A stretch of DNA of 64,000 nt, taken from positions 1 through 64,000 of the forward strand of contig JALHLV010000002.1 of NCBI GenBank assembly GCA_022844405.1, given 5' to 3'. Positions within the stretch are counted from its first letter, which is position 1, and every line of letters starts with the position of its first letter. Positions 33,074 to 56,551 of the stretch are shown piece by piece. A program made the translations under genes and the position numbers. The notes beneath the pieces were generated by a model that saw nothing but the letters and a program-made list of their open reading frames with translations, had not been told where the DNA came from and ran no database searches. This DNA is from Sphingomonadales bacterium (GTDB taxonomy: Bacteria > Pseudomonadota > Alphaproteobacteria > SMXS01).

Positions 33074-33460
33074 TGCCGGCGCGCGATATCGAAATTAGGT
33101 CCGACATCACGGGAGCGCCGACAACATCCCGCCAGAGGGGCCCGGACCACGGGTTGGGCCTTATGTTGGGTGGCGCCGGGACGATTCAAGGTCAAGTTTC
33201 GCAAGAAATGGATGTAGCAGGTCAATCTCCGGGCAATGACAGAGAACGAGTCCCGGTCTTCAAGTATTGATATTGTCCATACATAGAATTGATAATACCA
33301 ATACGACGGCAGGGCCAACCGGCAGCCCCTCGGGATCCCGGACAGAAACCCCTGCAACCCAGCAAGGTAAAATGCCTCGCCAAGGCGAAAACAGAAGCAC
33401 AATCAAGTGAATATGGGTGCTTCGCGGATGGACAGACGGCGAGACCGGACGCCGCGGTCG
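33074..33460. other. Non-coding gap between MCE and terC genes; probable terC promoter
   Basis: The 387 bases hold no convincing gene. The part at 33262-33300 is AT-rich, with a run containing TATTGATATTGTCCATACAT, and is the best place for a minus-strand promoter for terC. The stretch 33300-33400 is rich in short C/G blocks, without a clear hairpin-plus-T terminator. Confidence 0.5.
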
Positions 33461-55142: not shown

Positions 55143-56333
55143 TCAGGAAGGCGGCGTAGCGCCAAGCTGCGCCGCCACTGCCTCCAGCTTCAGCACCGAT
55201 TGCGACCCGTCCCGCCGCCGCAGGGTGACGGACCCGTCCGCCGCCTCGCGGTCGCCGACGATGGCCATCACCGGAATCCCCGCCTCATGGGCGCCAACGA
55301 TGCGCCGCGACAGGGTCTCGTTGCCGTCCTGCATCACCACGCGGATGCCGGCCCGGTCGAGCATCTCCCAGACCTGCCGGGCGTAGTCGCCGTGCCGGTC
55401 CGACACCGGCGCCACCGCCACCTGTTCCGGCGCGAGCCAGAACGGCAGCGCGCCGCCATGCTGCTCCAGCAGCACGCCGACGAAGCGGCCCATGGAGCCG
55501 AACACCGCATGATGAATCATCACCGGCACGGCGCGCGAGCCGTCGGGCGCGATGTAGGATGCGCCGAGCCTCTCGGGCAGGATGCAGTCGATCTGCACGG
55601 TGCCGCATTGCCACGACCGGCCCAGCCGGTCGCGCAGGATGAATTCCAGCTTGGGGCCGTAGAACGCCCCCTCGCCCGGCTTGATGGCGAACGATACGCC
55701 GCGCGCCTGTGCCGCCTCGGCCAGGCGCGCCTCGGCCCAGTCCCACTGTTCTTCCGAGCCGGCGCGTTCGTCCGGGCGGGTCGCCAGCGCCACCTCGTAG
55801 TCGGGGAAACCGAGCTCACCGTAGACCTCGTCGAGCAGGTCGATGAAACGGCCCACCTCCTCCACCGCCTGATCCTCGCGGCAGAACACATGGGCGTCGT
55901 CCTGCTCGAAGCCGCGGGTGCGCATCAGCCCGTGCATGGAGCCCGAGGGCTCGTTGCGGTGGCACTGGCCAAATTCGGCATAGCGGATCGGCAGCTCGCG
56001 CCATGAGCGCAGGCCCCTGTTGAAGATCTGCACGTGGCACGGGCACGACATGGGTTTGAGCGCCATCTCGCGACCGCCTTCGTCCTCGATGAGGAACATG
56101 TTGTCGCGGAATTTCTCCCAATGGCCGCTGCGCTCCCACAGCACGCGCGGCAGCACCATCGGGGTGCGGACCTCGGCATAGCCAAGGCGTCGCATGCGCC
56201 GCCGGATGTAATCCTCCAGCACCCGGTAGACCGCGTAGCCGCGCGGGTGCCAGAACACCATGCCGGGCGCGTCGTCCTGCAGGTGGTAGAGTTCGAGCCT
56301 GCTGCCCAGGCTCCGGTGATCGAGATCGTCCAT
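55143..56333 (-). CDS. Threonyl-tRNA synthetase catalytic and anticodon domains only (short form)
   Basis: The 396-residue protein has the class II core: motif 1 region PRGYAVYRVLEDYIRRRM, motif 2 ELPIRYAEFGQCHRNEPSG with GLMRTRGFEQDDAHVF, and motif 3 FGSMGRFVGVLLEQHGG. Zinc ligands Cys97 (MSCPCH), His148 (DDAHVF) and a His in MIHHAVFG are kept. The N-terminal TGS and editing domains of normal ThrRS (about 640 residues) are missing. It should charge tRNA-Thr without its own proofreading. It may be a paralogue used in stress or inhibitor resistance. The ATG at 56333 has an AAGGAG site. A Thr attenuator precedes it. Confidence 0.93.
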   Translation of the reverse strand: MDDLDHRSLGSRLELYHLQDDAPGMVFWHPRGYAVYRVLEDYIRRRMRRLGYAEVRTPMVLPRVLWERSGHWEKFRDNMFLIEDEGGREMALKPMSCPCHVQIFNRGLRSWRELPIRYAEFGQCHRNEPSGSMHGLMRTRGFEQDDAHVFCREDQAVEEVGRFIDLLDEVYGELGFPDYEVALATRPDERAGSEEQWDWAEARLAEAAQARGVSFAIKPGEGAFYGPKLEFILRDRLGRSWQCGTVQIDCILPERLGASYIAPDGSRAVPVMIHHAVFGSMGRFVGVLLEQHGGALPFWLAPEQVAVAPVSDRHGDYARQVWEMLDRAGIRVVMQDGNETLSRRIVGAHEAGIPVMAIVGDREAADGSVTLRRRDGSQSVLKLEAVAAQLGATPPS

Positions 56334-56387
56334 GTGCTGTACTCCTTGGGTTGAGGGGCACGGCGGGGCGTTCTGCTGCACAATAGA

Positions 56388-56417
56388 AAAGGCCCCGTCG
56401 TCGCCGGCGGGGCCTTT
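56388..56417 (-). terminator. Attenuator terminator before the short ThrRS gene
   Basis: On the minus strand, AAAGGCCCCG (from 56417) pairs with CGGGGCCUUU (to 56388), extended through an inner CCGG/UCGG-type stem to about 13 bp with a GCGA loop, and is followed by UUUUCUAUU. It lies 22 bases after the leader peptide stop and 54 bases before the ThrRS ATG. Its 5' arm contains CCGCCGG (56404-56410), complementary to CCGGCGG in the leader. Confidence 0.9.
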
Positions 56418-56438
56418 GCTGGTGAATGCGGTGGTTGT

Positions 56439-56516
56439 TTACCGCGCGCGACCACAAGACCAACCGCCGGAGGCGGTGGTCGTCGTCGTGCTCTGGTTGT
56501 GGCGCATCGCGTTCAT
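56439..56516 (-). CDS. Threonine-rich leader peptide of the ThrRS attenuator
   Basis: The 25-residue peptide is MNAMRHNQSTTTTTASGGW followed by SCGRAR. Five consecutive Thr codons (acg acg acg acc acc; 56475-56489) would stall ribosomes when Thr-tRNA is low. Segment 1 (ACCACCGCC, covering the last Thr codons) pairs with segment 2 (GGCGGUUGGU); segment 2 (CCGGCGG, 56464-56470) can instead pair with the terminator arm CCGCCGG (56404-56410). Stalling would mask segment 1 and let the antiterminator form. The peptide has no other obvious role. Confidence 0.85.
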   Translation of the reverse strand: MNAMRHNQSTTTTTASGGWSCGRAR

Positions 56517-56522
56517 GCCGGC

Positions 56523-56551
56523 TTTATGCGTCCGTATCGCCGCGCGGTCAA
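56523..56551 (-). promoter_or_regulatory. Sigma-70-type promoter for the leader peptide and ThrRS gene
   Basis: On the minus strand, TTGACC (56546-56551) and CATAAA (56523-56528) are separated by exactly 17 bases. Only six bases lie between the -10 box and the leader ATG, so the transcript would begin at or next to the ATG and be leaderless. It lies just past the stop of the VOC gene. Confidence 0.65.

Follow-up and report, generated by a model that had tools for sequence, protein, structure and literature searches.

Threonyl-tRNA synthetase (ThrRS) is, by textbook account, regulated through translational autorepression in Escherichia coli and through T-boxes in Gram-positive bacteria, and Bacillus subtilis has in thrZ a backup ThrRS which is switched on by uncharged tRNA-Thr. 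The attenuation of synthetase operons was reportedly also the subject of a study by Lopatovskaya et al. in 2010. The literature that we searched contained no example of thrS under leader-peptide attenuation, which agrees with the statement of an earlier note on the DNA analysed here that no named example was known; the study of Lopatovskaya et al., being of the same scope, may hold a prediction. Among other synthetase genes, pheST, trpS and leuS have known or predicted leader-peptide attenuation (PMC1262725), and a hisS paralogue of Bacillus carries a His leader peptide (PMC2965389). Two further features of relevance have been described singly: a leaderless attenuator ORF is established for trpL of Sinorhizobium (PMC7298713, PMC10117765), and the second ThrRS of Anabaena (T2, encoded by thrS2) is editing-defective and under zinc control (PMC4787780).

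We analysed a locus within a stretch of 64,000 nucleotides from a Sphingomonadales bacterium (contig JALHLV010000002.1, positions 1 to 64,000; hereafter the window), in which a gene for a short ThrRS is preceded by an element that is real and conserved and is very probably a threonine attenuator. The mechanism is that of classical ribosome-mediated attenuation and the target is new to the literature searched. What is unusual is (i) the target, a backup ThrRS which lacks editing and has apparently spread horizontally, and (ii) the reuse of the element in front of other genes. Beyond the content of the earlier note, the analysis brought out the second, editing-less ThrRS, the probably leaderless ORF, the occurrence of the element at other genes and a conserved fifth segment.

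The leader region and the short ThrRS

The earlier note had described a promoter TTGACC-N17-CATAAA placed 6 bases before an ATG, a 25-codon leader frame with five Thr codons in a row, three segments with two exclusive pairings, a strong terminator, and a ThrRS gene with its own AAGGAG. Each of these was located on the minus strand of the window, as follows:

56546..56551, minus strand: -35 box TTGACC, read from the sequence; TTGAC stands at the same place in 20 of 23 representative relatives
56523..56528, minus strand: -10 box CATAAA, after a 17-nt spacer and 6 nt from the leader ATG; relatives have the same spacing
56439..56516, minus strand: leader peptide ORF MNAMRHNQSTTTTTASGGWSCGRAR (25 codons and stop), with its ATG at 56516; counterparts occur in relatives
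56475..56489, minus strand: five consecutive Thr codons, ACG ACG ACG ACC ACC, inside the leader ORF
56472..56480, minus strand: segment 1, ACCACCGCC, overlapping the final two Thr codons; its competitor pairing is above shuffles in the 23 representatives
56459..56470, minus strand: segment 2, CCGGCGGTTGGT, with the conserved core GGCGG, kept in either of two frames with respect to the leader peptide
56404..56410, minus strand: segment 3, CCGCCGG, overlapping the 5' arm of the terminator; CCACC, in apparent compensation, in locus L051
56388..56417, minus strand: intrinsic terminator hairpin (3:4), AAAGGCCCCG...CGGGGCCUUU, of 10 bp and followed by UUUUCUAUU
56382..56390, minus strand: U-rich tract UUUUCUAUU, of which the first three U pair with the stem
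56359..56370, minus strand: segment 5, CGCCCCGCCGTG, complementary to the 3' arm of the terminator
56342..56347, minus strand: Shine-Dalgarno sequence AAGGAG of the ThrRS gene, read from the sequence
55143..56333, minus strand: short threonyl-tRNA synthetase of 396 aa, with its ATG at 56333; it consists of just the catalytic and anticodon-binding domains and is a second copy in the genome

Segment 1 (56480-56472) is complementary to GGCGGTTGGT (56468-56459), which gives the 1:2 pairing, and CCGGCGG (56470-56464) pairs with CCGCCGG (56410-56404) in the alternative 2:3 pairing. The intrinsic terminator (computed folding energy of -21.8 kcal/mol) shares segment 3 with the 2:3 antiterminator, as is expected of an attenuator, and the fold of the 146-nt leader was better than those of all 200 shuffles (z = -3.7). 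What the sequence shows is the parts themselves, how they are conserved, how they can pair in alternative ways, and that the target is a paralogue.

A generic scan for promoters and terminators returned nothing at the leader locus. The promoter was missed because the scan required the -10 box to end in T at its sixth position, which CATAAA does not, and the terminator because its 11-nt apical region and mixed U-tract fail the rule applied. At the gathering threshold, Rfam gave only one tRNA and one terC RNA in the whole window (the latter, RF03067, at 33092-33153 on the minus strand, with 58.7 bits), both away from the leader, and with E values up to 10 only sub-threshold matches at the leader, including BjrC68 and Thr_leader (RF00506; 13.5 bits against a gathering threshold of 55). 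A search for T-boxes found none, whether in the whole window at the gathering threshold or at the leader with E values of up to 10, and no Rfam family matched the attenuator.

The 396-aa protein matches TIGR00418 (thrS) with 471.8 bits (cutoff 383.65) and contains only two Pfam domains, PF00587 (class II core) and PF03129 (anticodon-binding). The TGS and editing domains are absent, and the protein begins at the catalytic core; among solved structures it is closest to catalytic fragments of the E. coli enzyme. The same genome also encodes a normal full-length ThrRS, with which it shares 54% identity in the core. In an alignment of the cores of 53 short and 34 full-length ThrRSs, the zinc ligands C334, H385 and H511 (E. 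coli numbering) were conserved in all 53 short rows and nearly all of the active-site residues checked were unchanged. The check included positions which we take to be borrelidin contacts; no drug-resistance change was seen there, the only substitution being at N333, where all short forms have Ser and all but one of the 34 full-length enzymes have Asn. All short forms lay on one side of a single branch (support 100/100) in a maximum-likelihood tree of 72 cores, so that they form an old lineage of their own rather than a collection of recently truncated enzymes. By its domain content and paralogy, the short ThrRS is an editing-less second copy beside the normal enzyme, and it looks dispensable.

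Conservation and spread of the element

Short-ThrRS genes were collected from the genus of the source, from named genomes, from 385 genomes sampled evenly across the class (which gave 10 matches outside the genus), from three further families and from plasmids; the same 10 genomes were obtained whether the family or the order was searched. After removal of four loci fetched twice there were 49 distinct readable loci, among which L142 (start misassigned) and L148 (contig edge) are not counted. The Thr-rich frame that the earlier note had reported proved to be a constant companion of the short ThrRS: in all 49 loci a short ORF containing Thr codons is accompanied by a GG[C/T]GG strand (GGCGG at the source) and by a terminator whose 5' arm resembles CCCCGCCGG. 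They span the genus of the source, Bradyrhizobium (for example, leader MNKLRSAALTTTATAYGGSPAGCAR), Roseivivax (MMIRIALATTTTTTPIRRVLRS), Mesorhizobium (MRQMFASVTTTTTIALRWPVV), other alphaproteobacterial families, and megaplasmids of Burkholderiaceae (Burkholderia arboris, MNARFVTTTTTTTTTANGGLGGGCTS).

Thr accounts for 133 of the 576 leader residues in the 23 representatives (23.1%; p about 3e-45 against 5.5%), and at least two adjacent Thr codons are present in 46 of the 53 recorded leaders. Those without are two variants from Bradyrhizobium and a single sub-lineage whose leaders are of the MQSIILTVATIKVTAVGG type (L115, L139-L141 and L143), in which only 3-4 Thr codons are scattered through the frame. 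A Thr-rich leader was found upstream of only one of 25 full-length thrS genes with a readable start, namely L130 (G285:C25, upstream of position 684, minus strand), whose leader, MTYPTTATMTTTATRCGGP, is accompanied by a different terminator. Judging from this leader and terminator, thrS may have come under threonine attenuation on more than one occasion. In the two Burkholderiaceae megaplasmids, of Caballeronia (L150) and B. arboris (L151), leader and short ThrRS have an architecture of the alphaproteobacterial type, which suggests that the gene was transferred together with its attenuator.

The conservation also bears on a simpler account of the locus, according to which the terminator merely ends the upstream VOC-family gene, the Thr-rich frame is a chance ORF, and ThrRS has its own promoter after the terminator. 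The end of the VOC gene does lie about 30 nt upstream on the same strand. Nevertheless, we consider this account highly improbable: leader, promoter and terminator are kept as a unit in distant genomes despite different upstream sequence, and among members of the genus the upstream sequence becomes alignable again only some 3 nt ahead of the -35 box, which is what a regulatory unit starting with its promoter should show. Moreover, the window contains no other ORF resembling a Thr leader; a run of at least four identical residues occurs in 49 of its 1546 short ORFs, and the combination of such a run with a downstream terminator only in the Thr leader ORF with its nested start.

The promoter itself is conserved in position. 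The TTGAC box keeps a fixed distance from the leader ATG where it is present, and the -10 box lies 4-10 nt from the ATG in all but one of the 23 representatives, in none of which a Shine-Dalgarno sequence is visible before this ATG. A -10 box so near the start codon indicates that the leader ORF is probably leaderless, with transcription predicted to start at or next to the ATG.

Another explanation to be considered is zinc control of the backup ThrRS through Zur, with the leader being vestigial. There is a precedent in the Zur-controlled thrS2 of Anabaena (PMC4787780), a DmeF-like metal exporter is encoded near the source gene, and thrS paralogues on plasmids of Acetobacter and Phaeobacter adjoin DUF1826, repressor or GTP-binding genes, like zinc loci. 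Those plasmid paralogues, however, are full-length and belong to the other clade of the tree. At the source no zinc-uptake gene adjoins ThrRS, the DmeF-like gene runs divergently with one gene in between, and leader and switch are conserved instead of decayed, which leaves very little probability for zinc control. The plasmid paralogues of Acetobacter, Phaeobacter and Klebsiella (L152, L154 and L155; all full-length, beside DUF1826, repressor, GTP-binding or metal-transport genes) seem themselves to have the neighbours expected of zinc-controlled copies.

A covariance model built from the thrS leaders was run on the 385 class genomes and on 398 genomes of the phylum. Its top matches were leaders of short thrS genes, and further strong matches revealed the same element before other genes:

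(i) asd, in six genomes (L168, L169, L173, L174, L175 and L179, from G353, G363, G286, G332, G059 and G101), is preceded by the same architecture with mixed Thr and Lys codons (for example, MMRFATKTTTTKTTTFGGPARTCA). From its codons, the asd leader reads as a two-amino-acid attenuator at the branch enzyme, aspartate-semialdehyde dehydrogenase, for both Thr and Lys; it fits the Thr/Lys leader suggested before an aspartate-pathway dehydrogenase gene for Sinorhizobium SEP5 (PMC10117765).

(ii) An isochorismatase-family hydrolase (PF00857) is preceded by a Thr-run leader and the same kind of terminator in L190, L193, L196 and L202, which come from other classes of the phylum (for example, MNQPRIASTTTTTTARGGS).

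(iii) A nucleotidyltransferase-domain protein (PF01909) follows a Thr-rich leader, similar to the thrS leader of Mesorhizobium, in L203 and L204 (G478 and G672).

(iv) A true thr operon leader, L207, was also matched (RF00506 score of 125 bits).

(v) A group devoid of an amino-acid run (...MTRFGWAVGGVVR; L172, L195, L197-L200, L178 and L201) shares the 2:3 and terminator segments, mostly has an MTR motif near the middle (e.g. ...HMTRFGWAVGGVVR), and precedes genes for DUF1127, GNAT or aminoglycoside-3-N-acetyltransferase-like proteins. These run-less leaders are possibly attenuators which sense the stalling of ribosomes by antibiotics.

Alternative pairing and the proposed switch

Ribosome stalling was modelled by folding the nascent RNA ending at segment 3, either free or with a ribosome on the first Thr codons. 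For the source sequence, the probability of the 2:3 pairing rose from 0.00 to 1.00 on modelled stalling, and that of the competing pairing of segment 2 fell from 0.99 to 0.00; over the 23 representatives, of which 20 showed a rise, the mean for 2:3 was 0.29 in the free RNA and 0.88 with the ribosome in place. Switching was poor in the model for L053, which hardly forms 2:3, for L111, L115 and L139, in which 2:3 is formed even in the free leader, and for L113 and L150, in which modelled stalling hardly changed it. Shuffling the leader 5' of the loop made 2:3 easier to form than it is in the natural leaders (combined p about 9e-11, an optimistic value given that the representatives are related). 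Since real leaders disfavour 2:3 more than shuffled ones, segment 1 appears to be a selected competitor. Folding and shuffles agree on exclusive 1:2 and 2:3 pairings, with the stalled ribosome covering segment 1.

As to the stem covariation that the earlier note had proposed to look for in relatives, the 2:3 pairing is kept and includes one double compensatory change. In L051, GGTGG in the leader is matched by CCACC in the terminator, against GGCGG and CCGCC in nearly all others, and this difference is the compensatory double change in 2:3. In the MAFFT alignment 88% of the 2:3 cells and 87% of the 3:4 cells pair, far above most slid controls but with few double changes; the near invariance of segments 2, 3 and 4 keeps the formal covariation modest. 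The fixed-column count for 1:2 in the same alignment is uninformative, as the register of this pairing shifts between lineages, and for these reasons stalling simulations and shuffles were used instead. GGCGG is moreover kept in two frames relative to the peptide (GGC GGN, or NGG CGG in L052, L110, L117 and L138), which indicates selection on the RNA rather than on the peptide.

Ribosome-mediated threonine attenuation, the reading offered by the earlier note, is supported by the conservation of the element and by the alternative pairing in relatives. We are accordingly quite confident that a ribosome-mediated transcription attenuator senses charged tRNA-Thr and controls the backup, editing-less ThrRS. 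As to events in the cell (stalling, termination, the exact start site and the physiological trigger), we infer the following course. RNA polymerase would start at or beside the leader ATG. With plentiful Thr-tRNA, the ribosome would pass the Thr codons, 1:2 and 3:4 would form, and transcription would stop before the gene. If Thr-tRNA were short, owing to threonine starvation or to a failing or inhibited main ThrRS, the ribosome would stall on the Thr run and cover segment 1; segment 2 would then capture segment 3, no terminator would form, and the backup ThrRS would be made.

A mainly translational leader, in which stalling caused by starvation or an antibiotic refolds the RNA and frees the Shine-Dalgarno sequence of ThrRS, with termination being secondary, would draw on the strong hairpin that can hide this sequence in a subset of loci including L109, L118, L113, L053 and L139 (combined p about 5e-4 in the 23 representatives). 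We nonetheless think such a leader very unlikely, since a strong terminator with a U-tract stands before the ribosome-binding site in nearly all loci, and neither at the source (p=0.24) nor in Bradyrhizobium does the hairpin exceed shuffles; that the Shine-Dalgarno sequence is hidden in every relative was likewise considered and rejected.

Translation might still be a second layer of the transcriptional attenuator. Segment 5, downstream of the terminator, is CCGTCC in most relatives (CGCCCCGCCGTG at the source) and complements the loop and 3' arm of the terminator. The resulting 4:5 duplex exceeds shuffles at the source alone (p=0.027) and in the 23 representatives (combined p about 5e-10), and segment 5 can also pair with the Shine-Dalgarno region in some relatives (L109, L118 and L151). 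It is conceivable, if rather doubtful, that these pairings form a relay in which segment 4, freed by 2:3, captures segment 5 and so releases the Shine-Dalgarno sequence of ThrRS (segment 6) otherwise hidden by 5, the leader controlling both transcription and translation. If such a relay were true, leaky read-through transcripts would be silent unless a ribosome was stalled on the Thr codons.

Comparison with described systems

Conserved and spread horizontally, a leader-peptide attenuator that controls a second ThrRS lacking editing would add a third mechanism to the regulation of ThrRS. It makes the purpose of this enzyme directly testable: to stand in for a main ThrRS that has failed or is inhibited, with mischarging as the cost. 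In addition, a small threonine regulon in Alpha- and Betaproteobacteria (asd, the isochorismatase-family hydrolase and the nucleotidyltransferase) becomes annotatable by its RNA.

The element resembles the leader of the E. coli thr operon (thrL, RF00506) in its Thr-rich ORF, exclusive hairpins, intrinsic terminator and predicted sensing of charged tRNA-Thr. It differs in that it targets an aminoacyl-tRNA synthetase and not biosynthesis, contains Thr codons only, with no Ile run, and has no significant match to RF00506 (13.5 bits against 55). The trpL leader of Sinorhizobium meliloti (rnTrpL) is likewise an alphaproteobacterial attenuator with a leaderless leader ORF; it responds to Trp, controls trpE(G), and its terminated RNA is an sRNA.

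With thrZ of B. subtilis the locus shares a backup ThrRS, whereas the T-box of thrZ binds tRNA directly, with no leader peptide, and the source locus has no T-box match. Anabaena T2 (thrS2) is also a second ThrRS with defective editing, and is made under stress, but it is controlled by Zur and zinc and is a full-length protein with a degenerate editing domain. The hisS paralogue of Bacillus (PMC2965389) shares leader-peptide attenuation of a duplicated synthetase; that system is specific for His, belongs to Firmicutes and is not described as lacking an editing domain. E. coli pheST (pheM) and Streptomyces trpS and leuS (PMC1262725) share the attenuation of a synthetase by its own amino acid through a leader peptide, from which the present element differs in the synthetase, in the bacterial group and in its dispensable-looking, second-copy target.
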